A stretch of 49,873 nucleotides of DNA from a virus: positions 1 to 49,873 of the IMG/VR virus record IMGVR_UViG_3300045977_000222; one strand, given 5' to 3'. A program made the position numbers and the translations under genes. Positions 34,072 to 49,009 of the stretch are shown here, one piece after another; position 1 is the stretch's first letter, and every line of letters begins with the position of its first letter. The notes under the pieces were generated by a model. That model did not search any database. It saw only the letters and a list, made by a program, of their open reading frames with translations, and was not told the origin of the DNA.

Positions 34072-34085
34072 GGGATACTTGTTTT

Positions 34086-34373: not shown

Positions 34374-34557
34374 TGGCGGTGATTTTGTCGGTCATGTAGG
34401 TCGTCCACGAGGCGTCAGCGGGCACCAGCGCGCCGCTTTGTTCGACCAAAGGCCGCGCGAGCGCGACCAGCCGATTGCGCACAAAATACGCGACGCGCTG
34501 GGGCCCGACCACATGCTCGAGTTCGCCCAGGCGCGCCAGCCCATCGGGCGCGCTCAT
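34363..34557 (-). CDS. Hypothetical phage protein, at least 64 aa
   Basis: The minus-strand ATG is at 34557, with MSAPDGLARLGELEHVVGPQ and RVAYFVRNRLVALARPLVEQ. The reading frame continues upstream without a start codon (NVAYQNGYKAAASGVN precedes the ATG), and that sequence looks natural. The ATG itself lacks a good ribosome-binding site. The gene may therefore be the 3' part of a frameshifted gene beginning at 34678. Its end overlaps the zinc-ribbon start. Confidence 0.55.
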   Translation of the reverse strand: MSAPDGLARLGELEHVVGPQRVAYFVRNRLVALARPLVEQSGALVPADASWTTYMTDKITANVP

Positions 34558-34603
34558 GTTGACCCCGGACGCCGCGGCCTTATAGCCGTTCTGGTAGGCG
34601 ACG

Positions 34604-34678
34604 TTAGGCCGCTGCCAACGCCACCGCGGCCTCTTCGGCGGCGGTCACCGCCGCGATCATGTCGCTCTCTGCGCTCAT
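34604..34678 (-). CDS. 24-aa Ala/Glu-rich ORF, likely 5' part of a frameshifted gene
   Basis: The minus-strand ATG at 34678 is preceded by a strong GGAGG site. It encodes MSAESDMIAAVTAAEEAAVA and ends at TAA 34604-34606 after ALAAA. One base later the +1 frame continues as NVAYQNGYKAAASGVNMSAP into the 34363-34557 gene. A single missing or extra base, or a programmed shift, would join them into a protein of about 105 aa. Confidence 0.4.
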   Translation of the reverse strand: MSAESDMIAAVTAAEEAAVALAAA

Positions 34679-34774
34679 GTGCGTCCTCCATCTGGTGGCT
34701 TTGTGCGGTCTTTCACAATTAGCCCCGAAGGTAACACGCCTCACTGAAATCGGATGCCAGTGAGCGCAAGCGGG

Positions 34775-34993
34775 TCAGCCCTTTCGCTGCAGCGCGAGGA
34801 TGCCATCGACGATCCGCCGCGTCGCGGCCGGCAGGCGCTCGAGCCACTCGGTCATCCCCGTGGTGACGAGTTGCGATTGGGACTGCTGGAGCACGCGAGC
34901 GGCCACGCGCAGGCGGCGCGCGAGTGGGTCAGGCAGGCGGACGCTCACTTGTCGCGGTGAAGTGCGCCGTTTCGCGGTGAGGTTCTTCGTCAT
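34775..34993 (-). CDS. Ribbon-helix-helix DNA-binding protein, 72 aa
   Basis: The minus-strand ATG at 34993 overlaps the stop of the antitoxin gene (ATGA, 34990-34993). A basic N-terminus leads into RQVSVRLPDPLARRLRVAAR, the beta-strand plus helix of an RHH (CopG/Arc) fold. A second helix (QQSQSQLVTTGMTEWLERLP) follows. It is co-transcribed with brnT/brnA as a third member. It may add repression of the cassette or act on phage promoters. Confidence 0.7.
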   Translation of the reverse strand: MTKNLTAKRRTSPRQVSVRLPDPLARRLRVAARVLQQSQSQLVTTGMTEWLERLPAATRRIVDGILALQRKG

Positions 34994-35256
34994 TCCTTGG
35001 CCGGACGCAGGGCGTCTGCGATCCGCACCTTGATAAAGGCCTGCCGGTTGATGCCGAGCCGCCGCGCCGCGTCGTCGATTTGAGCCAGGAGGTCCACCGG
35101 AAAATCGACGTTGACGCGCTGCACCTTCTTGCCGGGCCGCTGCGCCGTCGAGAGGTCCAGATCGGGCGTCATGTCGTGATCGCCCGAATCGAAGCGCGCA
35201 TCGAACTCGGCAGCCGTCGTCGTCGGCCGCCGCCTAAACGCGATCTTCTTCTTCAT
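34990..35256 (-). CDS. brnA: RHH antitoxin paired with BrnT, 88 aa
   Basis: The start at ATG 35256 (MKKKIAFRRRPTTTAAEFDA) is preferred over a longer frame with a low-complexity leader. The C-terminal half KKVQRVNVDFPVDLLAQIDD AARRLG ... IKVRIADALR is a CopG/BrnA-type ribbon-helix-helix that would bind both DNA and the toxin. Its start lies 23 nt inside the toxin gene, the normal toxin-first order of brnTA. It is expected to repress its own operon at the inverted repeat 35513-35531. Confidence 0.8.
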   Translation of the reverse strand: MKKKIAFRRRPTTTAAEFDARFDSGDHDMTPDLDLSTAQRPGKKVQRVNVDFPVDLLAQIDDAARRLGINRQAFIKVRIADALRPAKE

Positions 35257-35512
35257 AGCGGGCCGCTTCTTCTTTCCGGGCGCGGCGGACGGAGATGAGG
35301 CGGATCGTCGTGTGCGCATGTCGGTAGGTCACCACGGCAGACCAGAGCGTCTGCCCGATACGGCCTGTAATCAGTGAACGCGGCTCGTCCATCGGACGGG
35401 CCGCCACCTCAATCCGGCGTGGGTCGTCCCAGAGCGCCTGCGCCGCCGCGAAGTCGATGCCGTGACGGGCTTGGTTCGTCAGGGATTTTCGCGGGTCCCA
35501 CTCGAAGCGCAC
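35234..35512 (-). CDS. brnT: BrnT-family RNase toxin, 92 aa
   Basis: The minus-strand GTG start at 35512 gives VRFEWDPRKSLTNQARHGID, the family opening. DFAAAQALWDDPRRIEV and then IRLISVRRARKEEAARYEEE complete the RelE/BrnT fold; the ISxRxA and RxxY ends are typical. Longer frames upstream run through the promoter and operator and are unlikely. It cleaves mRNA when free of its antitoxin. In a prophage it could support lysogen maintenance or defence. Confidence 0.85.
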   Translation of the reverse strand: MRFEWDPRKSLTNQARHGIDFAAAQALWDDPRRIEVAARPMDEPRSLITGRIGQTLWSAVVTYRHAHTTIRLISVRRARKEEAARYEEEDRV

Positions 35513-35531
35513 AGGTATACCGAGTATACCT
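35513..35531. promoter_or_regulatory. Inverted-repeat operator of the brnTA cassette
   Basis: AGGTATAC and GTATACCT form a perfect 8-bp inverted repeat with spacer CGA immediately upstream of brnT. An extra half-site GGTATAC lies at 35548-35554. A minus-strand -10-like TATACT (35523-35528) lies inside the repeat, so a bound RHH antitoxin would block transcription. Confidence 0.65.
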
Positions 35532-35581
35532 CTGTAAGGGTCTATTTGGTATACTGTCGGGGTTAGCAAACAGAAGAAGTC

Positions 35582-35689
35582 GGCCCCCCGACGTGTGTGA
35601 CCACGTCGAAGGGCCTCACCGTCAACCTGCGATAACCAGGCTGGCCGGCTGAACATCATTATTAACCGGGGACTTTGTGACCCCGGTTA
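35582..35689. other. Structured intergenic region with two strong hairpins
   Basis: Hairpin A: GGCCC (35582-35586) and CGACGTG (35589-35595) pair with CACGTCG (35602-35608) and GGGCC (35611-35615) around a TGTGAC loop. Hairpin B: TAACCGGGG (35663-35671) pairs with CCCCGGTTA (35681-35689) around a 9-nt loop; GC-rich flanks (CTGGCCGGCTG, CAGCCCGCCGGCC) could extend it. The region separates divergent operons and holds no ORF. It could be a small RNA, a 5' leader or a bidirectional terminator. Confidence 0.45.
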
Positions 35690-35743
35690 CATCCCAGCCC
35701 GCCGGCCGAGCGGCGCGTGGAGCACGCGCCAGGAGGCCACACC

Positions 35744-36013
35744 GTGCGTCAACACGTCATCGTCGAACTCCGCAAGATCCAGGCGCAGGTCGCGGAGCTG
35801 CTTAAGCTCCTCGAGCAACGGCCCGCCGCACAAGGAGCGTTGACAATGTCAACGCTGCGCACGGCCACGGCACGCCGCCGCGGGCCGGCACGTCGGGCAC
35901 CGGCAGCACCGTCCGGCGGCATCGAGTTCCAGGTGGCGTGCGCGAGCTGCGCACCCTACTGCGCGTTCCCGAATTGCCCCTGCACCTGTCACCGCGCGGC
36001 GAAGCGGGCATGA
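35744..36013 (+). CDS. Hypothetical phage protein with Cys-rich tail, 89 aa
   Basis: GTG 35744 has AGGAGG at 35731-35736. Residues 1-32 form a helix (VRQHVIVELRKIQAQVAELL), the middle is basic, and the end has CASCAPYCAFPNCPCTCH, a probable metal-binding cluster. An in-frame ATG at 35846 has its own AAGGAG site, so a 55-aa shorter form is possible. It is coupled by ATGA to the exonuclease and may be a recombination partner; no family is known. Confidence 0.6.
   Translation: MRQHVIVELRKIQAQVAELLKLLEQRPAAQGALTMSTLRTATARRRGPARRAPAAPSGGIEFQVACASCAPYCAFPNCPCTCHRAAKRA
35836..35856. promoter_or_regulatory. Inverted repeat overlapping an internal start
   Basis: AGCGTTGAC and GTCAACGCT are perfect 9-bp inverted repeats with spacer AAT. 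The repeat contains the ATG at 35846 and a -35-like TTGACA (35840-35845), and AAGGAG lies just before it (35832-35837). As RNA it would hide the internal start; as DNA it could be an operator. Confidence 0.45.
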
Positions 36014-36732
36014 AGATCGTCAACGTCGAGCAACGATCGGGCGCGTGGTTTCTCGCCCGCGCCGGTCGCCTCACCGGCTCGCGGGCCCAGTGCGTCCTGA
36101 TGCGCGGACGCGGGAACGAGGAGTCGCTCGGCCGCGCGAACTACCGCCGGCAGCTCGTCCTCGAGCGGCTGACCGGGATCCCGCAGGAGGATCGGTTCTC
36201 GTCGGCCGCCATGCGGCGCGCGACGGCGATCGAACCGCGGGCGCGTGCGCTCTATGCGGAGCGGACTCGGCAAGTCGTCCACACGTCCGGGTTCCTGGTG
36301 CATGACGAGCTGGAGGCGGGAACCTCGCCGGACGGGCACGTCGGCGCCTACGAGGGCGTCGTCGAGTTGAAGTCGCTCCGGAGCTTGACGCATCTCGGCT
36401 ACCTGGCCGACCGGCGGCTCCCGGCGCAGTATCGCTCGCAGGTCCGACACCACCTGTGGATCACCGGCGCGGCGTGGTGCGATTTCGTCCTCTACGATGA
36501 TCGGCTGCCGGGCCAGCTGCAGATCGTCCGGCACCGGTTCACGCGGGAGGAGCTCGACATCCCCGGCTACGAGATCGCGGCGGTGCGGTTTCTCGAGGAG
36601 GTGCGCCAGCAGACGGCGCGCGTGCGCGCTCAGGTGCGGTCTGCATCAACGCGCGATGTCATGGTGTGCCTGGTTGCGCTCGAGGGCGAGGCGCTCAATG
36701 CGCGGCTCGCGCCGGTGCGCCACCAAGGCTAG
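36010..36732 (+). CDS. YqaJ/lambda-type recombination exonuclease, 240 aa
   Basis: Start ATG 36010 in an ATGA overlap. The opening VNVEQRSGAWFLARAGRLTGS is the YqaJ-family signature. Asp108, Glu119 and Lys121 (in SPDGHV ... VVELKS) form the PD-(D/E)xK centre. QYRSQVRHHLWITGAAWCDFV is the conserved final motif. The family degrades one strand of double-stranded DNA ends for single-strand annealing. A partner SSAP was not recognised; the flanking genes are candidates. Confidence 0.85.
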   Translation: MKIVNVEQRSGAWFLARAGRLTGSRAQCVLMRGRGNEESLGRANYRRQLVLERLTGIPQEDRFSSAAMRRATAIEPRARALYAERTRQVVHTSGFLVHDELEAGTSPDGHVGAYEGVVELKSLRSLTHLGYLADRRLPAQYRSQVRHHLWITGAAWCDFVLYDDRLPGQLQIVRHRFTREELDIPGYEIAAVRFLEEVRQQTARVRAQVRSASTRDVMVCLVALEGEALNARLAPVRHQG

Positions 36733-36835
36733 ACTTACCCTTCACCGCCCGCCGCCTAGCTCCGGCGTCATGACCCGGAGTGCGCCCGTGGGTTCCCCGC
36801 CCACGGCAGGCGGCCGGCGGATCGCTGGGGGGGCG

Positions 36836-37609
36836 ATGCAGTATCCCGTTGGATTTCCACCGGAGTGGGTGCGGGCGCTGGACGTGGCGCGCACGAAGGC
36901 CGGCATCAAGCTCCGGCAGACGCTCGCCGCGCTGCCTGCGCGGTCCTCGCTGCGGTCGTTCTCTCGACACGATCCCGCATGGGACGACGGCTGGCGCCCC
37001 CGCGCGCGCGCCGCGCAGGCCTACGTCGAAGATGTGGTCGCGGCGCTGGGTCATCACGCCGGCGAGCCGGGCCAACCGTATGACTGGCCTCTCTCCGAGC
37101 TCCTGGACGCGGTCGATGAGTTTGTTGCCCGCCAGCTGATCCCGACCGCCTTCGAACTGGCGGAGTTCAGTGCCGCCGACGAGTGGGATCTAGAGGAGCT
37201 TCGGGAGCGGCTCCTCGAGCGCATCCACCAGGGGTCCGTCTGGCAACACTTCCTGACCGCGTTCCAGACGGTGGCCGACCACATCGATCACGGAGGGGTG
37301 CTGGAACCCGTCGAACCCAGGGCCCCGTCGTCAGCGAAGCGCCCGGCCGACGTGCCGCCGCCGTTGACGCTGGCAACGACCGTCGCGAATGACCCGGAAA
37401 TCGATCGTCGATTGAAGATGCTGGAGGACTACAAGACCGCGGCTGGCAAGACCAGCATTCGGGCCATTTGCCGGGCCGCCGAGGTGGCCTCAGGAGAGTT
37501 TTACAAGTGGAAGAACGGGACGCTGCAGAGGCAGTCCGTAACCGCCAAGAAGCTTGAGCAGTTCCTCGTCGCCAAGAAGGCACCCCCAAAGCGGCCGCCC
37601 CGCGCGTAG
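36836..37609 (+). CDS. Hypothetical phage protein with C-terminal HTH-like region, 257 aa
   Basis: The likely start is ATG 36836 (MQYPVGFPPEWVRALDVART); an in-frame ATG at 36770 would add 22 low-complexity residues. The N-terminal 190 residues are helical and acidic. The C-terminus (KTSIRAICRAAEVASGEFYK WKNGTLQRQS) reads as a helix-turn-helix followed by a basic tail. It follows the exonuclease and precedes the putative switch region, so it may be a regulator. No family is recognised. Confidence 0.6.
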   Translation: MQYPVGFPPEWVRALDVARTKAGIKLRQTLAALPARSSLRSFSRHDPAWDDGWRPRARAAQAYVEDVVAALGHHAGEPGQPYDWPLSELLDAVDEFVARQLIPTAFELAEFSAADEWDLEELRERLLERIHQGSVWQHFLTAFQTVADHIDHGGVLEPVEPRAPSSAKRPADVPPPLTLATTVANDPEIDRRLKMLEDYKTAAGKTSIRAICRAAEVASGEFYKWKNGTLQRQSVTAKKLEQFLVAKKAPPKRPPRA

Positions 37610-37860
37610 TCGCGCGCTCGCCAGCCCCAGCCGCGGTGCCGCCGTAGCTGCACCTACCCGCGCAGCCGAAGTCTCGATCGCTCTCCACCGCATTTTCTTC
37701 TTGCGCTTTCGTGCGCTTTCTAGCGGGTTCGCCGCGAGTTCTGGCTTGATTTTCTTGCGCACGGTGGAGGCACACTCCGGACCGCGTTTTGTGCCGGCCG
37801 TTAAGTAATTTGGAAGGTTGACCCGGTTGCTGTGGGGGCAACCGGGCAACGAACACGAAG
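37610..37860. promoter_or_regulatory. 251-bp gene-free switch-like region with hairpin
   Basis: No convincing gene is seen. A T-rich stretch (37690-37760) with repeated GCGCTTTC/TTGCGC units is unusual in this GC-rich genome. CCCGGTTGC (37822-37830) and GCAACCGGG (37838-37846) form a perfect 9-bp inverted repeat with a 7-nt loop just before the replication genes. It could be an operator, attenuator or terminator. The AT-rich TTAAGTAATTTGG (37801-37813) is a candidate promoter element. Confidence 0.5.
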
Positions 37861-38304
37861 GTGAGAGATGCTGTGAAGGGCGGCAGTGTAGCACGGTCCG
37901 ATTTCCACAACCCCCCGCTCGCCGCGCCTCAGCAGCCGGCGCTCTTCGACATCCATCCGCAGCCTCGACCAGTGCGCCCATCGTCGTTAGCACCTTCAAG
38001 CCGAGGAATTATTGCGGGCGTCCCGCAACAAGCAGCAGCGTCGCGACGATCAGGACTCGCCGTATCCCGAGCGCGCATGGGCGGCCAAACCCAGCGCGTG
38101 CTGGCACTGCTTGCGACAGCTGGCCCGCTCACCGATCACGCGCTCGCTGACGAGCTCAAGGTGCCACTGGCCTCGGTCAACGCCGTGCGCAACGCGCTGC
38201 TGAAACGCGGGCTGGTGCGTGCGTGCGACCAGGTGGCTGGAGTCGCCGGCGCGAGGCGGACACGATGGACCCTCACTGGAGCCCAGGCGGGTTCACGCCG
38301 ATGA
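37861..38304 (+). CDS. Winged-helix DNA-binding protein, up to 147 aa
   Basis: The open frame begins with GTG 37861; GTG 37873 is an equally plausible start given the GAAGG at 37856-37860. Residues about 1-70 are Pro/Ala-rich. Residues 74-140 (TQRVLALLATAGPLTDHALA, VPLASVNAVRNALLKRGLVR, then a TRWTLT wing) are a clear winged helix-turn-helix. It overlaps the replication initiator by ATGA. Such proteins often act as accessory replication or regulatory factors. Confidence 0.7.
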   Translation: MRDAVKGGSVARSDFHNPPLAAPQQPALFDIHPQPRPVRPSSLAPSSRGIIAGVPQQAAASRRSGLAVSRARMGGQTQRVLALLATAGPLTDHALADELKVPLASVNAVRNALLKRGLVRACDQVAGVAGARRTRWTLTGAQAGSRR

Positions 38305-39242
38305 GCGACTCGGGCTGGTATCGACGGCTCTACGGGCGGCTGTGGCGACATCCAGGCTTCTTCCCCCTGTCGCCTGACGAAAAGCTCATCGCGCTCTACG
38401 TCCTCACGGGCCCGCAGACGAATCGCATCGGCCTCTTCCGCTTCTCGATTGAGATCGCCGTGGTCGATCTCCGGCTCTCCCAGCTGGTGCTGCGCCGAGC
38501 GATCGCGAGGATCTGCGAGCGGTTCGAGTGGGGGTTCGATGTCGAGAACTGCGTGATCTACGTCCCGTCCTGGTGGGCGTGGAACCCGCCGGCCAACCCC
38601 AACGTGCTGAAGGGTAGCCTCAAGGATCTCGACGCCATCCCGCCGTGCGAGCTCCGCGAGCGATTCCTGCGCCACCTCGAAACCCTTCCCGAAACCCTTC
38701 GGCAAACCGTTCCCGAAACGGTTGTCGAAACCGTTCCCCGAACCGTTCCCCGAACCGTTTCGGCAAACCCTTCCCGAAACGGTTCCGCCTCAGTAACAGA
38801 AGCAGGAACAGGAACAGCAACAGCACCAGCAACGGGAACAACAGACGCCGCGCCCGGCGAGGAACGCCGGGCCTCCCCCGTCCCGACTCGAACAGCGTTC
38901 GACCACTACCAGACGCTGTTTCTCAGCCGCTACGCCGCGAAGCCTGAATACGGATCGGATTCGAACAGCCGCAACAAACACGCGGGCGCCATGGCGAGGC
39001 TGCTCAGGAAGCACGGGATCGACGAAGTGATCCGCCGTCTCGATGCCTACTTCGATGCGCCGGATCCGTTCCTCCAGCAGTCGGGGCACAGCCTCGGCTT
39101 GTTCTTCTCAAGCGATGTGCAAACCAAGCTCGTCGCGCACCTGAGCGGCCGCCGCGGTGGGACCGCCGTCTCGACCAAGACCCAACTGAGCCTCGCGGCG
39201 CGCGACCGAGTCCTGGCGCGCATCCAGGAGGGCGGGTCATGA
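38301..39242 (+). CDS. Replication initiator (phage O-like), 313 aa, containing iterons
   Basis: Start ATG 38301 in an ATGA overlap. The N-terminal 120 residues (GWYRRLYGRLWRHPGFFPLS PDEKLIALYVL ... VYVPSWWAWNP-like) form the winged-helix region of phage replication initiators. Residues about 126-163 are a four-residue periodic linker (ETLP, ETLR, QTVP, ETVV...), encoded by 12-bp DNA repeats. Then comes a Thr/Ala linker and a conserved C-terminal helical domain (FDHYQTLFLSRY ... HSLGLFFSSDV). Lambda O also carries its origin iterons in its coding sequence. The next gene is P-like. Confidence 0.75.
   Translation: MSDSGWYRRLYGRLWRHPGFFPLSPDEKLIALYVLTGPQTNRIGLFRFSIEIAVVDLRLSQLVLRRAIARICERFEWGFDVENCVIYVPSWWAWNPPANPNVLKGSLKDLDAIPPCELRERFLRHLETLPETLRQTVPETVVETVPRTVPRTVSANPSRNGSASVTEAGTGTATAPATGTTDAAPGEERRASPVPTRTAFDHYQTLFLSRYAAKPEYGSDSNSRNKHAGAMARLLRKHGIDEVIRRLDAYFDAPDPFLQQSGHSLGLFFSSDVQTKLVAHLSGRRGGTAVSTKTQLSLAARDRVLARIQEGGS
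38678..38786 (+). repeat. Nine 12-bp iterons, candidate replication origin
   Basis: The core AACC(G/C)TT or its complement-type AACGGTT recurs at 38681, 38693, 38705, 38717, 38729, 38741, 38753, 38766 and 38778. Spacing is 12 bp with one 13-bp step. The consensus unit is roughly CGAAACCGTTCC. AACCGTT followed by AACGGTT gives local dyads. An asymmetric A/C-rich, GC-poor stretch (38791-38846, CAGGAACAGGAACAGC) follows, placed like the AT-rich melting zone beside lambda iterons. Confidence 0.7.
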
Positions 39243-39934
39243 CGCCCGACGAATTCGGTGTGTTCAGTGCGCGGTTGATTGCCGTCCAAGAATTGCTCGA
39301 TGGCCCGGCGCTCAGCGAGAGCCGCCTGGTGCTCTACTTCGAGGCGCTGAGCGACCTGGCGCTTGAGGATGTGCTCAGGGCGCTTGGCACCGCGATGCGG
39401 ACCTCGACGTTTCTGCCCAAGCCGGCCGAGTTGCGGACGCTGGCGGTCGGGGACACCGCCGATGGCGTCGAGGCCAGTTGGCTCCTGTTCCGGAAGGCGA
39501 TGCGTGAGGCGGGCGCCTACGCCTCGCTGGCGACCGTCGATCCGGCGCTCGGCGCCACGATCGAAGCGATGTTCGATGGCTGGCCGCAGGCATGTTCGGC
39601 GGAGTTCTCACCCGAAATGTGGACGGCGAAACGCAAAGAGTTTGAGCGCATCTACCGCGTCGTCGCGCAGCGGGGACTCGTCGGCCCGCGGTATCTCCCC
39701 GGGCTGATCGAGCAGCAGAACGGTGGGCGGGCCGAATGGCGCACCTACACCACGATCGCCGTCATCGGTGCAACGGGGATCGAACGCCTCGAGGGTGTGC
39801 GCGCGGAACAGTATCGGGCGGCACTGCCTGCGAACCCGCCAGAGGGACGACCAGCGGGCTTTATCGACATCGGGACAATCGCGGCAGGCAGCGGCCTCGT
39901 CACCGGAGCATTGAAGAAGGAGGACGCGTCATGA
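39239..39934 (+). CDS. Putative helicase-loader (P-like) protein, 231 aa
   Basis: The ATG is in an ATGA overlap with the initiator. LVLYFEALSDLALEDVLRAL ... MRTSTFLPKPAELRTLAVGD is a pattern common in P-like/DnaI-type phage helicase-loader proteins (small helical domain ending in F.PKPAE.R). The rest is helical with no AAA+ motif visible. Location directly after the O-like gene supports the assignment. A C-terminal Gly-rich tail is probably disordered. Confidence 0.55.
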   Translation: MTPDEFGVFSARLIAVQELLDGPALSESRLVLYFEALSDLALEDVLRALGTAMRTSTFLPKPAELRTLAVGDTADGVEASWLLFRKAMREAGAYASLATVDPALGATIEAMFDGWPQACSAEFSPEMWTAKRKEFERIYRVVAQRGLVGPRYLPGLIEQQNGGRAEWRTYTTIAVIGATGIERLEGVRAEQYRAALPANPPEGRPAGFIDIGTIAAGSGLVTGALKKEDAS

Positions 39935-40425
39935 ACGGAGACCGGTCCATGTCCATCGCCGAATTCGTGACGGCGGAACTCCGGCGCCGCTATCAGGCCG
40001 AGACGGACGCGATCATGGCGGACTGTGACGCACGCGACCTGCCGGTCGAGCAATGGCCCATCATCCAACTGCCCGACCTCCTAGCGGACTACCTCCGCGA
40101 GGTGCCGCAGATCGCCGCGGCGTGGTGTGCGCTCAGTGAGGACGATCGACGGGTGGCGCTCCTCGCCCTCCTGAAGCAACTTCAGGCCGACAGCAAGGCG
40201 GAAGAAGACCGCTACAGGCACCTGACCGATGTCGCGGAAAAACGCGCGAAGCACAATCGTGAGCTCACGGAAGACATCGAGGCCGTGATTCCGGGCGCAT
40301 CGCGGTGGACGCTCAGGGTCCTTTCGGACTACTTCGACGCGCATCCCGACGAAGCCGCCCAAGTCGCGTTGCGCCAGCGAATACGGTCGGCTGCCGGGAT
40401 CGCGCCGCCCGCCCAAGAAATGTAA
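39931..40425 (+). CDS. Hypothetical phage protein, 164 aa
   Basis: The ATG at 39931 overlaps the previous stop and has AAGGAGG at 39917-39923. The chain is helical throughout (IAEFVTAELRRRYQAETDAI, RVALLALLKQLQADSKAEED), acidic at the centre. No catalytic motif is visible. Its place after the initiator/loader pair suggests an accessory replication role, without direct evidence. Confidence 0.6.
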   Translation: MNGDRSMSIAEFVTAELRRRYQAETDAIMADCDARDLPVEQWPIIQLPDLLADYLREVPQIAAAWCALSEDDRRVALLALLKQLQADSKAEEDRYRHLTDVAEKRAKHNRELTEDIEAVIPGASRWTLRVLSDYFDAHPDEAAQVALRQRIRSAAGIAPPAQEM

Positions 40426-40434
40426 GGAGGGTCG

Positions 40435-40704
40435 ATGACTCACCTACTGCACCTACTGACCGATGAAGAGCTCATCGACCTGCTGCATCGACGTTACAGC
40501 TCCAAGGCCGAGGAGCACTTTGTCGAGTGGTGCGCGGAATGGACCGCGAAGGCTTTCGTTCACGAACACCCCGACCTCACGGCCGGCCAGACAGTTGAGG
40601 ACTTGAAGGCTGAAGCGTTGGCAGATCCCACGTTTACTGCGAAGGCCCGCGCGCGGTTTCGATACGAAACATTCGACGCGATGAAGGAGCAAGGCCATGG
40701 GTAA
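40435..40704 (+). CDS. Hypothetical phage protein, 89 aa
   Basis: ATG 40435 has AAGGAGGG at 40424-40431. The sequence MTHLLHLLTDEELIDLLHRR is a Leu-rich helix, then a Trp/Phe-rich segment (VEWCAEWTAKAFVHEHPDL). Codon use is a little less GC-rich than its neighbours. It overlaps the excisionase-like gene by 8 nt. No function is assignable. Confidence 0.6.
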   Translation: MTHLLHLLTDEELIDLLHRRYSSKAEEHFVEWCAEWTAKAFVHEHPDLTAGQTVEDLKAEALADPTFTAKARARFRYETFDAMKEQGHG

Positions 40705-40963
40705 ACCGCAATTGGCGTCAGCGAATCAGGAAACCGCGGAACCAACGCCCTGGCTGACGGTGCCGGAAGGGGCCCGGCGCGCCAAGTGCGGGCCGAAGGT
40801 GATCTACAACGCGGTGCGGCGGCGAAAGTTGCGGGCCGTGCGCGTGGGCAATGCGTTTCGCATCCACGTCGAGTGGCTTGATTGCTGGCTTGAGGCGCAG
40901 GCGACGGTCGTGAACCCCGAGGCCCCCGGCCGGGAGATTCCGTTCGCGGTGCGGCGGTCTTAG
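40697..40963 (+). CDS. Excisionase-family (MerR-like HTH) protein, 88 aa
   Basis: ATG 40697 lies 8 nt inside the preceding gene. WLTVPEGARRAKCGPKVIYN AVRRRKLRAVRVGNAFRI is the helix-turn-helix and wing of excisionase/AlpA-like proteins, and HVEWLDCWLEA is the usual final helix. It would bend attP DNA to favour excision, or regulate int. Proximity to the integrase (240 nt upstream) supports this. Confidence 0.75.
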   Translation: MGKPQLASANQETAEPTPWLTVPEGARRAKCGPKVIYNAVRRRKLRAVRVGNAFRIHVEWLDCWLEAQATVVNPEAPGREIPFAVRRS

Positions 40964-40996
40964 CGTATGTCACTACACCTGTGGTAGCGTAGGCGC

Positions 40997-41206
40997 ATGG
41001 CACATTCCGACTTCACCGACGTGCTCCCCACGGTGGCGGTCACCGCGCCGAAGGTGATGATCACCCTGCGCCTGGACAAGGTCATCATCGACTACTACCG
41101 AAAGACTGGCAAATTGTGGCACTCGAGAATCAACGCGGACCTCAAGTTCATGGTCGAACAGCGCCAAGCCGCGAAGCCCGCCAGCCGCCGGCGGAGAACA
41201 CGATGA
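40997..41206 (+). CDS. BrnA-like RHH protein without adjacent toxin, 69 aa
   Basis: ATG 40997. The segment KVMITLRLDKVIIDYYRKTG KLWHSRINADLK is the classical BrnA antitoxin motif (LRLDxDVLxxFRxxGxGyQxRIN), although no BrnT gene is next to it. The C-terminus is basic. A short inverted repeat (CTAC/GTAG near 40973-40988) precedes it. It is coupled to the integrase by ATGA and may control int or neutralise the BrnT encoded at 35234. Confidence 0.7.
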   Translation: MAHSDFTDVLPTVAVTAPKVMITLRLDKVIIDYYRKTGKLWHSRINADLKFMVEQRQAAKPASRRRRTR

Positions 41207-42555
41207 GCGCCCAGCGCCAGAACCTGCGCAAGCAGTGCCCCTGCCCCGAGACCAAGTGGGCGAAGTGCGCGCATTCGTGGCACGTCGTGGCGCAGCAGCA
41301 GTGGGTCAGCCTCGACCGCTACTGCAAGCGGCGCGGGCTCGACCTGGTGCGGCTGCGCGGCGAGGCCGAGCCGCTCCGCGACCGCATCGTCAAGGAGATC
41401 GAGAGCGGCACCTACGAGGCGAAGCCCAAGGCGGTGACGGCGACGGCCACCGCGGGGACGGAGCCCGAGACCGAGGGTCTGACGTTCGATCAGGCGTGGC
41501 CGCTGTTCATCGAGACGCTCGGGGACATCGAGTCGGTCAAGGACGAGGAAAGCCGGTATCGCACGCTCGCCGCCATCGACGTGCCGGGCGCCGGGCGCCT
41601 CGGGGCGCTGTCGCTCGCGAGCCTCACCGAGACCCATGTCGAAACGGTCTTCGCGCGGGCCACCAAGGGCAAGGCCGAGAGCACGAAGAAGAAGTATCGG
41701 CGCGCCCTGAAGCGACTGTGCCGCTGGGCCGTGCGGAAGAAGCACCTGGCGGTGAACCCGATCACCGAGGAGACCGTGCTACGGGTGGGCAAGGATGTCA
41801 TGCGCACCCGGCGCGTCAAGCCGGACGAGGAAGCGAACCTCCTTGAAGCGGCCGGCGAGGGCCGCAGTGACGCGGCGTGGCGGCTCGTGGCGCTCATCAC
41901 CGCGGCGCTCGACATCTGCGCGCGCATCGGCGAACTGCTCGCCCTCCAGTGGCGCGACATCCTCTGGGACGAGGGCGAGCACGGGCGCGTTCTGGTGCGC
42001 GCCGTCGAGCGGGGCGCGCGGAAGAACCGCAAGAGCCGTCGCGTGCCGCTCACCCCGCGGCTGCTGGTGCTGCTCCGGCGCCTACAGACCCTGCATCCGC
42101 CGGGCAAACCCTGGGCGGGAACGCACTACGTGTTCGGTGACGCCATCGGCGGCCGCGTGAAGAAGATCCGGAAGGCGTGGATGACGTGCGTGCTGCGCGC
42201 CCACAACGTGCTGCCGACCTGGTCGGGCACGAAGATCGATAAGGCCACGCGCGAGGCGTTCGCCGCGATCGACCTGCACTTCCACGACCTGCGGCACGAA
42301 GGGGCGTTGCGATGGTTGGCGAAGGCCTACACGCTGCCGACCATCGCGCAGCTCCTTGGGCACTCGAACATGGACTCGCTGAAGGTCTATCTCGGCATCG
42401 AGCAGGAGGACGCCCTGGACGAAGCCGACCGTCTGAACGCTGCGGAAACACCCGCGGCACCGGCCGCGACGGCTCCGCGCGGTAGTAAACGGGTAGTATT
42501 CGGCCGACGGGGGCGTGTCCTCGCTCATCTCGCGAAAGGAGGCGCTCGACGATAA
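41203..42555 (+). CDS. int: Tyrosine-family integrase, 450 aa
   Basis: Start ATG 41203 in an ATGA overlap. Catalytic residues are visible: Arg241 (CARIGELLAL), His361 and Arg364 (HDLRHE), His387 (LGHSN) and Tyr396 (VYLGI). The N-terminal region contains an arm-binding and core-binding part (LTFDQAWPLFIETLG, STKKKYRRALKRLCRWAVRK). A CPCPE...C cysteine cluster starts the protein. The codons for its tail contain an arm-type repeat (42474-42498). attP lies directly downstream. Confidence 0.9.
   Translation: MSAQRQNLRKQCPCPETKWAKCAHSWHVVAQQQWVSLDRYCKRRGLDLVRLRGEAEPLRDRIVKEIESGTYEAKPKAVTATATAGTEPETEGLTFDQAWPLFIETLGDIESVKDEESRYRTLAAIDVPGAGRLGALSLASLTETHVETVFARATKGKAESTKKKYRRALKRLCRWAVRKKHLAVNPITEETVLRVGKDVMRTRRVKPDEEANLLEAAGEGRSDAAWRLVALITAALDICARIGELLALQWRDILWDEGEHGRVLVRAVERGARKNRKSRRVPLTPRLLVLLRRLQTLHPPGKPWAGTHYVFGDAIGGRVKKIRKAWMTCVLRAHNVLPTWSGTKIDKATREAFAAIDLHFHDLRHEGALRWLAKAYTLPTIAQLLGHSNMDSLKVYLGIEQEDALDEADRLNAAETPAAPAATAPRGSKRVVFGRRGRVLAHLAKGGARR
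42474..42498 (+). repeat. Arm-type direct repeat R1
   Basis: TCCGCGCGGTAGTAAAC then GGGTAGTA, so GGTAGTA occurs twice 10 bp apart. Copy R2 at 42736-42760 differs in one base. R1 lies inside the int 3' end, about 123 bp from the tRNA anticodon loop. It is a likely integrase arm-binding site. Confidence 0.6.
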
Positions 42556-42587
42556 CGTTTTGGGTGACATAGACTTACGACCAGCAC

Positions 42588-42639
42588 GCGCCCGTAGCTC
42601 AGTTGGATAGAGCACCGGCCTTCTAAACTGATTCCGGGC
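42588..42639 (+). tRNA. tRNA-Arg(UCU)-like 5' half; candidate attP core
   Basis: GCGCCCG (42588-42594), a D-arm (GCTC...GAGC, 42597-42611), CCGGC (42613-42617) and the loop CTTCTAA with anticodon TCT (42620-42622) reproduce a bacterial tRNA-Arg 5' half. The 3' anticodon strand and T-arm are absent; ACTGATTCC follows. CGGGCGC at 42633-42639 could pair with the 5' acceptor, hinting at a deletion remnant. It is not a functional tRNA. It lies just downstream of int and between two arm repeats, so it is best read as the attachment-site core. Confidence 0.65.
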
Positions 42640-42735
42640 GCGGCCGTCGTAGGCCTTCCTTCGCCACCCATCCTTTTCCTTAGCAAATCAGCGCAGCACG
42701 AATCCTCGCGCGGACTATCGCGGCGCCGCGTTCTG

Positions 42736-42760
42736 TCCGCGCGGTAGTAAACCGGTAGTA
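42736..42760 (+). repeat. Arm-type direct repeat R2
   Basis: 24 of 25 bases match R1 at 42474-42498, in the same orientation, again with two GGTAGTA units. It lies about 115 bp beyond the tRNA anticodon loop, so R1 and R2 are almost symmetric about the core. Confidence 0.6.
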
Positions 42761-42765
42761 AACCC

Positions 42766-42781
42766 TGTTACTTACGTAACA
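42766..42781. promoter_or_regulatory. Short inverted repeat before the second giant gene
   Basis: TGTTAC and GTAACA are 6-bp inverted repeats with spacer TTAC, 28 nt upstream of ATG 42809. They lie between R2 and the ribosome-binding site TAAGGAG (42795-42801). A regulatory site for the downstream gene is possible; the motif is short. Confidence 0.35.
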
Positions 42782-42808
42782 CCTGTCAGTCGTTAAGGAG
42801 ACGCTCTG

Positions 42809-45800
42809 ATGCCACCGCAGTCCTCCATCTTCGGCCCGGTGTTCCCCACGGAGGAGCAGGCCCCGGCACCGTCCCCAATGGCCCCTGGCGGCTTCCAGTT
42901 CCCGCCCTCGCGCATCTTCGGGCCGCCGGTCGATGACGAACAGCTCGCGCGCCGCGTCGGCGAGGCGCGGACCGCGAGCCCGGATACCGCCGCGCGCATC
43001 TGGGAGCTGCAACGCCGGACCGGTCTGCCGGGGGCGGTGATCGGGGATCATCTCGAGGAGATCGAGCGTGAGGCCGCGTCGCGCGACTTCGACGCGGCGA
43101 AGTTTCGGCGGGAGTCTCCGTATCTCGCGGCCTGGCTGCAGGAGGACGAGCAGCAGGCGGCGATCGCCAACGACGACCTCGCCAACATGGGGCTGCTCGA
43201 GTGGCTGGTGACCGCGCCGGAGCGCGCGTTCAGGCGCAGCCAGGCGCAAGTCGAACTGGCGCAGCTGCGCACCAGGAGTTTGTTCGGGCCGCCCCTCACC
43301 GACTGGGAACACCGGCGGCTCGCGGAGCTCAAGCGCGCGATGGGGGCCGGCGGCGCGCTCGGCGTCGGCGACTCCTGGTTCAGGGGCGCGGTGACGGGCG
43401 CCGCGGAGCAACTGCCGATCCTGTGGGGGAGCACCCTCAAGGGGGCCGAACGTGCCGCCATTGCCGGACCGGCGGCGGGCACGATGGCCGCGATCGCCGC
43501 GCCGCTCACGGGACCGGCCACGCCGTTCACGGTGCCGGCGATGACGGCCGGCGGCGTCGCCGCCGGCGTCCTCGCCGGGGGCGTGGAGTTCGGGTTCCAG
43601 CTCGAGGCGGGCCTCGCCTACGACGAGTTCCTGGAGGTGACGGACGAGCTCGGGCGCACGATTGACCCGGAGGTCGCCCGCGTGGCCGCGATTGCCACAG
43701 GCGCCATCAACGCCGGACTGGAGGCGTGGGGGTTCGAACGCTTCCTGCGCCTGTTCCCCGGCATGAAGTCACTCCTCGGCACGGTGTCGCGTCCCGCCGT
43801 CAAGGAGGCGCTGCGGTCGGCGACGGTGCGCGCCGCCCTCGCGAAGGCTGCGAAGGCCTACACGGGCAACCTGACGCTGGAGACGGCCGTGGAGCTCGCG
43901 CAGGAATTCGGCACCATCCTCAGCGGCGAGGCGGCGAAGGCGGCGAGCGGCGTGGAGGGCGCGAGCGCGGAGGACATTGCCGCGCGCCTCAAGGCCACGG
44001 CCGTGCAATCGGCGCAGTCGTTCACGCTCCTGTCGGCCATCGGGCCGACGCTCGGCGTGCGCAGCGACGTGGTGGCGGCGCGCCAGGCCGAACACAACCA
44101 GACGTTCTTCACCGCGCTGGGTGAAGGCGTCGCGCAATCGAAAACCGCCGCGCGGAATGCGAACGCGGTGCAGAACTTCCTCGCGACGGCCACGAAGGAT
44201 GGGCCGCTCGCGCACGTCTATGCGCCGGTCGATACCTGGACGACCTACTGGCAGTCGAAGAACCTCGATCCGGCGGCGATGGCGACCGAGCTCACCGGCG
44301 ATAGCGAGGCCTACGCGCGGGCCCGGCGCGAGGGGACAGACCTGGTCATTCCGACGGCGCGGTATGCCGCCAAGCTCGCCGGCACCGCGCACAACGCCTT
44401 CTTTGCCCAGGAACTGCGCACCGGTCCGGAGCAGCCGAACTTCCGCGAAGCGAAAGCCATGCGCGCGGCGGTTGAGGCGCGGATGACCGCCGCCGCAGCG
44501 GAGGCGGGGACGACCGCCGCCGCGGCCTCGCCGGCGCGGCAGGCGCTCGTCACCCAGCTCGAGGCGGCAGGCGTGGCGCCGGACGAAGCCGCCCGCGTGG
44601 CTGACCTGCACGGCGCCATCGTCGGGACCATCGGCGCACGGGCCGGGCAGTCCGAGGCGCAGCTGGTTGAGGACTATCCGATCGCCGTCACGCGCCCGGG
44701 GTTCGAAGGGTTCAACGTGACGGCTTTGCCAAAAGAGGAAGCCGTCACGCCGCCCGATGCCGCGACCACGACGCTGGAGCAAGGCGGCGTGGAGGAGGTG
44801 CGGAGCGTTGCTCCGCAGGACGCCGAGACGGCGCTCGCATGGGACTACCTCAAGGCCACCGCGCCGGACGACTTCGCATACGCCAGGGCGACGAACCAGA
44901 TCCCGGTCGTGCCCGTCGATGTGCCACGCGAGGAGGTCGAGGCGGTCGTCGCGGAGTTCCGCGCCACGCGCGCGGCCGATCCTGCGGATTTAAATCCGCA
45001 GGGACCGTCGGGTCCCACGGGGACCGTCGTCGTCCACTACGAGCAGCGCAAGGGCACCGGCGGGAAGCGCGGGTTCATCTCGTTCCCCACCGGTCGCGGC
45101 CCGCGCCGTTTCCAGATCGGGCTCCTCAAGACTGCCGACCCCTCAACGCTCCTCCACGAGCTCGGGCACTTCTACCTCGAGGTGCTCGGCGACCTAGCCG
45201 ATGGGCTGGCGGCGCAGGACCCGGCGACCCTCAGCGACACGCAGCAGCGACTGGTTGCGGACTACCAGGCCTTCCTGCAGTTCCTCGGCGTCGAGAGCCG
45301 CGACGCCATCACGACCGAGCACCACGAAAAGTTCGCGCGCGCGTTCGAAGCCTACCTCTACGAAGGCAAGGCACCATCGGTCGAGTTGCGCTCCGCGTTC
45401 GCGTCCTTCGCCGCCTGGCTGACCCGGGTGTATCGCTCGATCCGGGCGCTCGACGTCGAGTTGAGCCCAGAGGTGCGCCAGTTGTTCGACCGGCTGGCGG
45501 CGACGGACGAGGCGATTGCGGCGGCCCAGAGCGAGGCGGAGGTCTCGCCGCTCTTCACCGATGCCGAGTCGGCCGGCATGACCGAGCTCGAATTCGCGGC
45601 CTACCAGGACGAGGTGCGCGAGGCGCACGACCGCGAGCATGAGATCGTCCGGACGAAGGTCCTGGCGGACCTGAAACGCGCCGACCAGGCGTGGTGGACG
45701 AAAGCCAAGGACGCGATGACCGCCACGGTCACGGCGGAACTGCAGCAGGACCCGGTCTACCGGGCGATGAGCGTCATGCGGACCGGCGCCTATCCGGACG

Positions 45801-48800
45801 GCACACCGTTCGTTGAAGGCGAAGACCCGCCCGTGCCGATCAAGCTCTCGCGCGCGTCCCTCGTCGCGCACTACGGCAAGGACATCCTCGCCCGCCTGCC
45901 GCGGCCGTATCTCTACGCGAAAGACTCCGGCATCACGGCCGATGCCGCGGCCGAGAACTTCTGGTTCTCGAGCGGGGACGAGCTGCTCAAGGCCATCATC
46001 GAGGCGGTGCCGTTTGGTGAGATGGTCGCCCGCGAAGTCGATCGCCGGATGACGGCGGAATACGGCGACATCTTCACCGATGGCCGGCTTGAGGCCGAAG
46101 CGGCGGCGATTGTCCAAGGTGGCGAGCACCGGCAGCGGATCGTGCAGGCCGAGCTCAAGGCGCTGACCAAGGGGCTGGCGCGGTCGACCATTCCGTCGGC
46201 CGCCGTGCTGAACGAAGCAGCGCGGCGCCAAGTAGCGGCGACGAAGATCCGCGACCTGCGCCCGGGCCTGCATCTGCAGGCGGCACGCCGGGCCTCCAAG
46301 CAGGCGTTCGAACTGATGGCGACCGGGCAGGACCGCGCCGGCGCGGTGCGGGCGAAGTTGCAGGAGCTCATCAACCTGGCGCTCTACCGCGAAGCGCGCG
46401 ACACCCTCGAGCGCGTCGAGTCGATGCGCCGGACGATGCGCGGCTACCGGTCGACCACCGCGCGCCAGCGGTTCGGCAAAGCCGGGGCCGACTACCTCAC
46501 CCAGATCGATGCCCTGCTCGACCGCTACGAGCTGGCGCGCGTCACGCAGAAGGAGCTGGCGGGGCGCGTCACACTGGCGGCGTTCGTCGACGCGCAGCAG
46601 AAGGCAGACATCCCGATCGAGATCCCGCAGACCCTGCTCAATGAGGCCCGCCGCATCAACTACCTCGACGTCCCAGTCGGCGAGTTCACCGACGTGTATG
46701 ACGCGGTCGAGCACCTCGCGAGACTCTCGCGGCTCAAGAACGAGCTCCTGAAGGCGGCCAAGCGGCGCACGTTCGAAGAGGCGCGCGACACCCTGGTCGG
46801 CTCCATCCTGCTCCACAACGACAAGCAGCCCACGAAGGTGGAGTTCCGGCCGGAGGACGAGCGGCGGGATTTCATCAACGACACGTTCGCTTCGCACACC
46901 AAGCTCGCCATCCACGCCCGGGCGCTCGACGGGTTCGAGGACGGCGGCGAGATGTGGGAGCAGATCATCCGCCCCATCAACGAGGCGGGCGACGCCGAAG
47001 CGGTGATGCGCGAGGACGCCATCACGCGGATGGCGGCCCTCTTCAAGCAGGCCTATCCGGGGCTCGAGCTCGGGCGACTCAACCGGAAACTCTTCATCAA
47101 GGAGATCGGCACCAGCCTCTCAAAAGAGGGGCGTCTGCTGGTGGCGCTCAACTGGGGCAACGAGGACAACCGGCAGCGGCTCCTCAACGATCCGAAGCGC
47201 CAGTGGAATGCGGCCCAGATCCAAGCCATTCTCGAAACGCTCGACCGCCGCGACTGGGAATTCGTGCAGGGCGTGTGGGACTACGTCGACTCGTTCTGGC
47301 CGGCGATCGAAGCCAAGCAGAAGCGGGTCGTCGGGCTGGCACCGGAGAAGGTCGTCGCGACGCCGGTCGATACGAAGTTCGGGCAGTTCCGGGGCGGGTA
47401 TTTCCCGATCAACTACGACGGCCGGCTGGTCGCGCGCGCCGGTGTGCTGAAGGAAACCGGCGAGGCGACGCTGAAGACCTTCGCGGCCTACGTGTCCGCG
47501 ACGACGCGCCGGGGCCATACGCAGGCGCGCATCGACAACGTCAAGATGGCGGTGCGGCTCGACTTCTCGGTGCTCTTCAACCACGTCGACCAGGTCATTC
47601 ACGACCTCACGCACCACGAAATGCTGATCGACGTAAACCGCCTGCTCGAGGACCGCGACGTGCAGGCGGCGATCGTCGACACGCGCGGACACCAGGTGTA
47701 TCGCCAGTTTGTCAATGGCCTCGAGGACATCGCCATGGGCGCGGCTCCAGCGAAAAACTGGGGAGAGCGCGCGGCTAATTTCGCTCGCGGCGGCACACAG
47801 GTCGCCCTGCTCGGCCTCAACTTCTGGACGGCGCTGCAGCAGCCGCTCGGGCTCTTCAACGGCATGTTTCAAGTCGGGCCCAAGTGGGTCATCCGCGGGA
47901 TGAAACGCTGGCTCCGCGATGCGGCGACGATGCAGTCCACGCTCCAGTGGATCCACACCAAGTCGGCGTTCATGAAAGATCGCGCGACCGGCGGCGCCAC
48001 GCAGGACCTGCAGGATCTGCGGGCGACGTTGTCACGCCCGAATAGTTACTTCGATGTCCTGGTGCGAACCGCCACGAAAGACAAAGTCACGCAGCAGAAC
48101 ATTCTCAATTCGTTTCTCTGGCACATTACCCAGGCGCAGAAGATCGCGGACGTGCCGACGTGGATCGGGGCGTACGAGAAGCACATGGCGCAGGGGGATC
48201 AGACGCTGTCGGTGGAGGCGCTCGAGGCGCGTGCGGTCGCGCTCGCCGACCAGGCCGTGCGCGATGCGCAGGGGAGCGGGCGCATCAGCGATCTGGCGCA
48301 GGTCCAGCGCGGAGGACCGATCTTCAAGTTGTTCATGACGTTCTACAGCTACGGGAACGTGCTCTTTAATCAGACGGTCGAGGCCTACGGCCGGACTGAA
48401 CCGTCGCTGAAGCGGCCGGGCAACGCGGCGGCGTTCATCGGGCACCTCTCGTTGCTCTACGCCTTCCCGGCGCTGGGATTGGTGGTGATGTCACGGGCGC
48501 TCGGGCGCACCGGCGGCGACGAGGACGACGAGTCGTTCATGGTCGAGTTCGGCAAGGAGATGCTGTCGGCCGCCCTGAACACGATGGTCGGGGTGCGCGA
48601 GCTCGGCGGCCTGCTGAACGAAGGCGTGCGCGGCTACGCCGGCCCGGCCGGCACCCGTGTCGTGCAGGCGGCGTATCAGCTCGGCCAGCAGATCAAGCAG
48701 GGCGAAGTCGACGAGGGTCTCGTCGGCGCCGCCACCAACGTCGCCGGCATCATCTTCCGGTTCCCGGCCACCCAGGTGCAGCGCACCGTCGAGGGGTTCA

Positions 48801-48865
48801 TGGCGCTGCAGGAAGGGCGCACCCGTAACCCGGCAGTCCTGTTGATCGGGCCGCCGCGCGACTAA
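42809..48865 (+). CDS. Second giant polyvalent ejection protein with HELGH motif, 2018 aa
   Basis: ATG 42809 has AAGGAG upstream. Residues 1-641 align without large gaps to the 2893-aa protein (roughly 75-80% identical by eye). The two proteins differ after GFEGF. Residues 642-768 are a unique linker where the other has about 1000 residues. Residues 769-1894 appear identical to 1644-2769 of the other, including HELGH (His783, Glu784, His787). The last 124 residues diverge again (GRTGGDEDDE). It is probably ejected with DNA. It lies immediately after attP, away from the morphogenesis operon. Confidence 0.85.
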   Translation: MPPQSSIFGPVFPTEEQAPAPSPMAPGGFQFPPSRIFGPPVDDEQLARRVGEARTASPDTAARIWELQRRTGLPGAVIGDHLEEIEREAASRDFDAAKFRRESPYLAAWLQEDEQQAAIANDDLANMGLLEWLVTAPERAFRRSQAQVELAQLRTRSLFGPPLTDWEHRRLAELKRAMGAGGALGVGDSWFRGAVTGAAEQLPILWGSTLKGAERAAIAGPAAGTMAAIAAPLTGPATPFTVPAMTAGGVAAGVLAGGVEFGFQLEAGLAYDEFLEVTDELGRTIDPEVARVAAIATGAINAGLEAWGFERFLRLFPGMKSLLGTVSRPAVKEALRSATVRAALAKAAKAYTGNLTLETAVELAQEFGTILSGEAAKAASGVEGASAEDIAARLKATAVQSAQSFTLLSAIGPTLGVRSDVVAARQAEHNQTFFTALGEGVAQSKTAARNANAVQNFLATATKDGPLAHVYAPVDTWTTYWQSKNLDPAAMATELTGDSEAYARARREGTDLVIPTARYAAKLAGTAHNAFFAQELRTGPEQPNFREAKAMRAAVEARMTAAAAEAGTTAAAASPARQALVTQLEAAGVAPDEAARVADLHGAIVGTIGARAGQSEAQLVEDYPIAVTRPGFEGFNVTALPKEEAVTPPDAATTTLEQGGVEEVRSVAPQDAETALAWDYLKATAPDDFAYARATNQIPVVPVDVPREEVEAVVAEFRATRAADPADLNPQGPSGPTGTVVVHYEQRKGTGGKRGFISFPTGRGPRRFQIGLLKTADPSTLLHELGHFYLEVLGDLADGLAAQDPATLSDTQQRLVADYQAFLQFLGVESRDAITTEHHEKFARAFEAYLYEGKAPSVELRSAFASFAAWLTRVYRSIRALDVELSPEVRQLFDRLAATDEAIAAAQSEAEVSPLFTDAESAGMTELEFAAYQDEVREAHDREHEIVRTKVLADLKRADQAWWTKAKDAMTATVTAELQQDPVYRAMSVMRTGAYPDGTPFVEGEDPPVPIKLSRASLVAHYGKDILARLPRPYLYAKDSGITADAAAENFWFSSGDELLKAIIEAVPFGEMVAREVDRRMTAEYGDIFTDGRLEAEAAAIVQGGEHRQRIVQAELKALTKGLARSTIPSAAVLNEAARRQVAATKIRDLRPGLHLQAARRASKQAFELMATGQDRAGAVRAKLQELINLALYREARDTLERVESMRRTMRGYRSTTARQRFGKAGADYLTQIDALLDRYELARVTQKELAGRVTLAAFVDAQQKADIPIEIPQTLLNEARRINYLDVPVGEFTDVYDAVEHLARLSRLKNELLKAAKRRTFEEARDTLVGSILLHNDKQPTKVEFRPEDERRDFINDTFASHTKLAIHARALDGFEDGGEMWEQIIRPINEAGDAEAVMREDAITRMAALFKQAYPGLELGRLNRKLFIKEIGTSLSKEGRLLVALNWGNEDNRQRLLNDPKRQWNAAQIQAILETLDRRDWEFVQGVWDYVDSFWPAIEAKQKRVVGLAPEKVVATPVDTKFGQFRGGYFPINYDGRLVARAGVLKETGEATLKTFAAYVSATTRRGHTQARIDNVKMAVRLDFSVLFNHVDQVIHDLTHHEMLIDVNRLLEDRDVQAAIVDTRGHQVYRQFVNGLEDIAMGAAPAKNWGERAANFARGGTQVALLGLNFWTALQQPLGLFNGMFQVGPKWVIRGMKRWLRDAATMQSTLQWIHTKSAFMKDRATGGATQDLQDLRATLSRPNSYFDVLVRTATKDKVTQQNILNSFLWHITQAQKIADVPTWIGAYEKHMAQGDQTLSVEALEARAVALADQAVRDAQGSGRISDLAQVQRGGPIFKLFMTFYSYGNVLFNQTVEAYGRTEPSLKRPGNAAAFIGHLSLLYAFPALGLVVMSRALGRTGGDEDDESFMVEFGKEMLSAALNTMVGVRELGGLLNEGVRGYAGPAGTRVVQAAYQLGQQIKQGEVDEGLVGAATNVAGIIFRFPATQVQRTVEGFMALQEGRTRNPAVLLIGPPRD
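45114..48492 (+). repeat. 3,379-bp direct repeat, copy 2
   Basis: The same orientation and apparently the same bases as 28386-31764, offset +16,728. The left edge follows TTTCC/CTTCG differences; the right edge is the A at 48493 versus G at 31765. The identity is nucleotide-level, since wobble positions and opposite-strand translations also agree. Confidence 0.9.
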
Positions 48866-48880: not shown

Positions 48881-49009
48881 ATGCTCGACCAGATCCTGCT
48901 CGTGCTCGCCTTCGTGCTCTTTCTCCTGGCGGCGATCAACGTGCCGTCGCCGCGGGTGTCGCTGCTGGCGGCGGGCCTGGCCTGCTGGGTGTTGACGCTG
49001 CTGATCTGA
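48881..49009 (+). CDS. 42-aa two-TM mini-protein
   Basis: ATG 48881 is preceded by AGAAGGAG at 48867-48874. The sequence MLDQILLVLAFVLFLLAAIN, a short PSPR turn and a second hydrophobic stretch (SLLAAGLACWVLTLLI) indicate two transmembrane helices. It follows the second giant gene by 15 nt and could act with it or serve as a holin-like peptide. Its stop abuts the convergent gene with no spacer. Confidence 0.6.
   Translation: MLDQILLVLAFVLFLLAAINVPSPRVSLLAAGLACWVLTLLI

Follow-up and report, generated by a model that had tools for sequence, protein, structure and literature searches.

Two giant genes of one family in the probable genome of a temperate phage

Why would one temperate phage carry two giant genes for the same kind of ejection-type protein, one among its late genes and one next to its attachment site? 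The question is raised by the 49,873-base IMG/VR virus record IMGVR_UViG_3300045977_000222 (68% GC; a bacterial virus seen only in environmental DNA), which is referred to here, over its whole length, as the window. Both genes are on the plus strand. Gene A (23456..32137) starts with GTG directly 3' of an endolysin-like gene and encodes a long protein of 2893 amino acids (aa), and gene B (42809..48865), with an ATG start and a ribosome-binding-site-like AAGGAG, adjoins the phage attachment site attP and encodes a short one of 2018 aa. The explanation that we prefer, and to which we give an even chance, is that the phage holds two complete, diverged giant alleles under purifying selection, the C-terminal halves of which were recently homogenized by recombination.

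When compared by BLASTP, the front halves of the two proteins (A residues 4-659, B residues 4-660) are 77.7% identical and the back halves (A 1615-2893, B 741-2018) are 97.6% identical. The common front ends in both proteins at GFEGF (residue 641). The stretch between this front and the identical tract described below measures 1002 aa in A (642-1643) versus 127 aa in B (642-768), which agrees with the initial annotation that the two match to about residue 641 and then have about 1000 versus 127 residues before the zincin region. Homology returns slightly before the identical tract, at about A 1615 and B 741, and the slot between the shared ends is 983 aa in A (residues 642-1624; 25379..28327, plus strand) and 108 aa in B (residues 642-749; 44732..45055, plus strand). 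The net length difference is 875 aa.

The phrog_9880 profile covers the C-terminal chassis of both A (1192.6 bits) and B (1178.9 bits), and LPD22 is found at the N-terminal end of the two giants with 58.8 and 59.2 bits (curated cut-off 28.6). The zincin motif of A, HELGH, occupies residues 1658-1662 (28427..28441, plus strand), B's copy lies inside the second copy of the identical tract, and the HExxH residues (alignment H34, E35 and H38) are invariant in all eight aligned proteins. Judged by these matches, A and B are polyvalent-type giants, as first proposed, and belong to the BPP-1 bbp10/phrog_9880 family. A lies in the late operon, 3' of the genes for an internal virion protein and a transglycosylase-like protein, as does bbp10 in BPP-1. 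B lies 3' of int-attP and not after a transglycosylase-like gene, so that it is a member by its sequence, not by its place; the initial annotation was thus right to put one copy in the morphogenesis operon and the other next to attP.

The resemblance to Bbp10 of Bordetella phage BPP-1 (2052 aa) and to its Rauchvirus relatives extends to a chassis that is 36-39% identical, the zincin, a length nearly equal to that of B and the gene order internal virion protein, transglycosylase, giant. In contrast to BPP-1, which has one copy followed by tail-fiber genes, the window has two, the second beyond attP and read away from it. Polyvalent proteins, as described in the text available of Iyer et al. 2017 (PMC5512222), likewise combine LPD22, a zincin and a multi-module chain and are encoded near late genes, but that text does not describe a phage whose two paralogues share a homogenized C-terminal half, and the term "two polyvalent" occurs in it zero times. 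No open-access title or abstract on two such giant genes in one phage was found. In the accessible portion of PMC9239159, a sea-ice phage is reported to have a 2,986-aa bbp10 relative, and the name bbp10 is absent from the portion available of the BPP-1 head structure paper (PMC3863775).

An identical tract joins two diverged alleles

A and B share an exact direct repeat of 3379 bp, here called R, that spans the zincin and C-terminal chassis (copy 1, 28386..31764; copy 2, 45114..48492; both plus strand). The edges of R are abrupt, with uninterrupted identity giving way to about 80% DNA identity on the flanks, and the longest exact run shared by the genes outside R is 38 bp. Within R there are 0 substitutions at 829 synonymous sites. 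The synonymous divergence (dS) is 0.68 upstream of R (residues 1-641) and 0.57 in the tail downstream of it, with ratios of nonsynonymous to synonymous divergence (dN/dS) of 0.20 and 0.17, respectively. At 18% divergence, the chance of such an exact run is about 10^-291. These values indicate that the C-terminal part of the two genes has a recent history of its own and that the fronts are diverged alleles kept by purifying selection. Either the C-terminal halves of two selected alleles were recently made identical or one sequence was used twice by the assembler. The presence of the identical tract makes homogenization of the shared end a testable proposition.

B has the ordinary length and A is heavily loaded

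To place the two lengths, we used the best 80 of 121 genome loci, which contain 65 complete open reading frames (ORFs) with the C-terminal chassis. Once eight ORFs shorter than 1700 aa are left out, the remaining 57 intact relatives have a median length of 2092 aa; 29 are no longer than 2100 aa and a single one exceeds 2800 aa. Among the 27 loci with both conserved ends matched in one complete ORF, the slot between those ends ranges from -9 to 1249 aa with a median of 188 aa, compared to 108 aa in B and 983 aa in A. By this comparison B represents the ordinary type of the protein, whereas A is heavily loaded. This reverses the initial view that B lacks about 900 residues: A has about 875 extra, and B is of the usual family length. 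The idea that B is a truncated A was also rejected, since the residues of its slot are not significantly similar to the payload of A and the short form is usual in the family. No significant likeness of the B slot was found either to the A payload (the score was equalled or exceeded in 42 of 1000 shuffles) or to the IMG/VR relative 3300045885_000402, hereafter G002 (311 of 500 shuffles).

The giants of named phages are 2052 (BPP-1), 2002 (SR18) and 2854 aa (Carin1) long, and other loaded giants occur in G002 (3034 aa) and G004 (3559 aa). The gene of G002 is A-like, with a center 61% identical. Separately, two Achromobacter species have giants with slots of 341 and 108 aa (L064 and L065), a loading difference between close relatives.

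A possible route to the shared C-terminal half

According to the text available of PMC5512222, the presumed fate of polyvalent proteins is to be packed and delivered and to be split by the zincin into working parts, and those of phages are encoded near late genes. A and B would be expressed late, packaged into the head and ejected together with the DNA, and the zincin of the shared C-terminal half would free the payload by cutting inside the cell. The window encodes a YqaJ/RecE-like recombination exonuclease (35938..36732, plus strand; PF09588, E 4.3e-20), the pathway of which may recombine A with B. Lambda Red is described as recombining 22%-diverged genes efficiently (PMC2327257, in the part available). 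With this precedent and a RecE-like exonuclease in the window, phage recombination could have homogenized the chassis end and left two payload versions: the C-terminal half, which would have to fit the virion, would be kept identical, and the fronts and slots would stay different. B was probably acquired from a sibling phage along with the small membrane-protein gene behind it.

Were both proteins packaged, a single phage could deliver two versions of the payload, whether in the same particle or in separate ones. Host-range or anti-defense roles for them, as put forward in the initial annotation, are conjectural. The pair would then illustrate how polyvalent proteins evolve, with fixed ends, an exchangeable middle and recombination keeping the virion-facing end alike.

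The divergence of the fronts (dS 0.68) is also what sibling alleles might show if the second giant were real but accidental, a role-less product of recombination between sibling phages that is due to be lost through its direct repeats. Long direct repeats are unstable, and none of the examined relatives keeps two copies. The low dN/dS nevertheless argues that each allele has been kept functional, although possibly before the two met in one genome, and we regard an accidental pair as rather unlikely.

One genome or an assembly composite

The preferred reading, a functional pair homogenized at its C-terminal end, requires that both genes belong to one genome, and several observations weigh against it. 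No second giant copy was found in any of 43 phage records (three matched at two places, but each has one gene, in two cases truncated at the end of the record), on one contig in any of 50 bacterial genomes (in two, a second gene lies on another contig; the census covered 50 of 77 loci) or in five IMG/VR relatives, two of them fragments that break off within the gene. The sister contig G001 is 100% identical to the window over 27,882 bp and extends 3,479 bp further left, but it ends 504 bp before R. A scan of IMG/VR with the integrase, and another with the DnaD-like gene, gave no relative, and no sigma-70-type promoter was found before B. Moreover, an exact 3.4-kb direct repeat is badly handled by short-read assembly, and a simple loop in the assembly graph would give the same contig for an inserted segment as for a separate one. 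Two giant copies in one phage are unusual. The initial annotation had suggested a search for phages with only one version and had stated that the pair would fall if relatives and virions contained a single version and the second proved to be an assembly product; relatives do carry one copy, and an assembly origin of the repeat is possible.

The repeat has a period of 16,728 bp (28386..45113) that comprises R copy 1, the A tail, the genes from TerS to int, attP and the B front. In an assembly composite, the giant of the phage would consist of the A front, R and the B tail, followed by the membrane-protein gene, and the period would be a separate circle (or part of a mixed population) with the B front, R, the A tail, TerS, exonuclease, xis, int and attP; the assembler would have passed into R, round the loop, through R again and out. 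The exact repeat with one loop between its copies fits such a path, as do the break of G001 near R and the integrase and DnaD-like scans. G002, with its single giant, points the same way: the tail of its protein is slightly nearer that of B (100 versus 94 of 122 residues), and the ORF behind the gene is the one found behind B and not what lies behind A. The natural gene may therefore be A front-R-B tail, with the 16,728 bp inserted. However, the difference between the tails is small, and without the loop the phage would have no TerS, integrase or exonuclease unless these are in an unassembled part. Since the only TerS, integrase and exonuclease found in the window are in the loop, the loop looks like part of the phage, and because G002 has its own exonuclease and integrase, such content is normal for these phages. 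The integrase and DnaD-like scans yielded no contig of a separate element, an IMG/VR scan with TerS found only relatives at 38-60% identity, and a tetranucleotide comparison of the loop with the late region was uninformative. We consider a composite unlikely, if less so than an accidental pair, and think it probable that all of the window is one genome. A chimera of two linear phages joined at R was set aside, since the continuous segment from the A tail to the B front would argue for one loop.

A separate case of duplication was seen in JAFTWQ010000019.1 (L106/L107), where an 84-kb contig of a metagenome-assembled genome has two occurrences of the same 2759-aa giant at a distance of about 45 kb; this probably reflects one circular phage assembled more than one time round.

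A more speculative reading, which we consider highly improbable, takes the giants as a built-in splitting device, with direct repeats framing the lysogeny module so that one crossover in R divides the phage. One product, a circle of 16,728 bp, would carry int, xis, attP, the repressor-like gene, TerS and a complete short giant; it would be a newborn satellite, able to integrate and to provide a small terminase and an ejection-type protein of its own. The other would be an arc with all late genes and a complete long giant, followed by the neighbor that it has in G002. As the crossover falls inside the identical tract, the giant gene would stay open in both products. From the repeat one would expect the whole lysogeny module to be lost or released, which would be a possible path by which a phage gives rise to a satellite. 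Satellites of the phage-inducible chromosomal island type carry int, xis, repressor-like, DnaD-like and TerS genes, as does the 16,728-bp period (its repressor-like gene by a weak match), but the period differs from them in having a giant virion-type gene and in being known here only within this contig.

attP and the surroundings of B

The attP region (42478..42763) contains three CGGTAGTAAAC arm-type repeats, at 42480, 42742 and 42753, that flank a core resembling a tRNA 5' half (42588-42626) on both sides, compared to 0.08 sites expected. A full tRNA was not found at the core, which is 5'-half-like only. Because the arm sites match on both sides of the core, it is very likely that int and B really are neighbors, and B would lie at the prophage edge in a lysogen. 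In G002 int is also beside a tRNA-like attP, but the integration site is another one, of the tRNA-Glu type (a tRNA-Glu call, with repeats read by eye), and no giant gene is there. A 42-aa membrane-protein-like ORF (48881..49009, plus strand) lies 3' of B, and the same ORF lies 3' of the single giant gene of G002.

That B sits beside attP and has a ribosome-binding-site-like sequence of its own would suit a lysogeny-side cargo expressed from the prophage and acting in the lysogen, for example against superinfection, and not in the virion; the initial suggestion of a moron is possible for B. The promoter search noted above does not favor expression from the prophage, and B retains a full virion-type C-terminal chassis identical to that of A. 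We judge a cargo of this kind to be quite improbable.

A conserved module in the payload of A

Relatives of A residues 642-1614 were found in only three of 50,697 phage records, with weaker matches on four plasmid records. Within this payload, residues 1119-1614 (26810..28297, plus strand) form a conserved module present at 34 IMG/VR loci including the sister contig, and part of A's load is, on this evidence, a widespread polyvalent-protein module. From these 34 loci plus G002, two structure alignments were built with 19 and 16 related rows plus the window. The model of residues 1119-1614 (20 rows) has a mean predicted local distance difference test score (pLDDT) of 75.8. With it, Foldseek retrieved viral proteins (E down to 2.5e-27) whose annotations read large polyvalent, RelA/SpoT or ART-PolyVal.

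The first part of the module (26810..27616, plus strand) is tentatively HhH-GPD-like. It has an invariant stretch, GPKxGNGFFxNL...LTMDRW, and K203 and D222 of the alignment (Lys 1321 and Asp 1340 of A), spaced by 19, are invariant in all 20 rows. In HhH-GPD proteins the hairpin Lys and the catalytic Asp are 18-19 apart, and in an Ogg-HhH protein (L167) the spacing is likewise 19. When the low-confidence model of residues 1119-1387 (pLDDT 65.6) was compared with 105 chains (VIA-align 2), the top three were 8-oxoguanine glycosylases, with Z 5.0 (root-mean-square deviation 4.0, 127 aligned), 4.6 (7.9, 145) and 4.4 (5.9, 139), and the next had Z 3.3. Profile searches gave a different picture: hhalign yielded a probability of 0.1 against five Ogg-HhH proteins, with a score under that of column-shuffled controls, and 0.1-0.2 against seven EndoIII and one MutY. 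Foldseek found no match to either payload model in the PDB at E <= 0.001, Pfam and NCBIfam gave nothing above cut-off on the payload, and profile searches of solved-structure sequences returned none for the payload at E <= 10, none for the chassis at E <= 1 and one weak row for the B front (E 0.16). An 8-oxoguanine glycosylase (HhH-GPD) fold for residues 1119-1387 is therefore a lead to which we give somewhat less than an even chance; it was retained because the motif prediction preceded the structure comparison that ranked three glycosylases first. If correct, A would deliver base removal or DNA repair at entry, an activity unnamed in the available text of the 2017 survey (PMC5512222), in which the term "glycosylase" occurs zero times. 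The center of the G002 giant (L002:4751-13852) has, by eye, acetyltransferase-like and ADP-ribosyltransferase-like stretches that are absent from A.

Affiliation and other features of the genome

Loci were compared by blastp of ORFs, which replaced tblastx because of noise. The late genes run rightward in the order TerL, portal-type gene, protease, major head protein, tail genes, internal virion protein, endolysin-like gene and A. The major head protein is 61% identical to its BPP-1 counterpart. Together with the bbp10-like gene order, this identifies the window by sequence as a temperate Rauchvirus-like (BPP-1-like) phage with A in the standard bbp10 place.

Rightward of A follow TerS (Terminase_2; 33483..34049, plus strand), a repressor-like gene on the opposite strand (34990..35319; weak match, phrog_18157, E 4.7e-4), the YqaJ exonuclease, a DnaD-like helicase-loader-type gene (38223..39242, plus strand; phrog_1701, E 4.8e-9), an excisionase/HTH_17 gene (40697..40963, plus strand) and a tyrosine integrase (41116..42555, plus strand), the latter two assigned by family matches, and then attP and B. 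Beyond B are the 42-aa ORF and small opposite-strand ORFs.

TerS, the sole one found in the window, is 28 kb from TerL. The same TerS type lies immediately 5' of TerL in G003, G004, L022 and L023; in the window and in G002, the slot directly before TerL is filled by an ORF with a weak TIG match. A 370-aa ORF 3' of the exonuclease (36497-37609) had no family match and, judged by its position, could be the annealing partner of the exonuclease. In the extra 3.5 kb of G001 (L006 13584-17062), beyond the left end of the window, small ORFs occur together with the recurring intergenic sequences TATGCGACATG and GATCCGGATC, seen by eye; a motif picked out there by eye showed no enrichment in the window. 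The 22-bp perfect palindrome AGTGTTCAGTTAACTGAACACT (32148..32169), the only copy in the window, lies between A and the next gene and is possibly an operator. Finally, a small NrdR-type zinc-ribbon gene occurs twice, before TerL (3679-3987, plus strand) and beside TerS (34086-34373, minus strand), and the two are about 68% identical.

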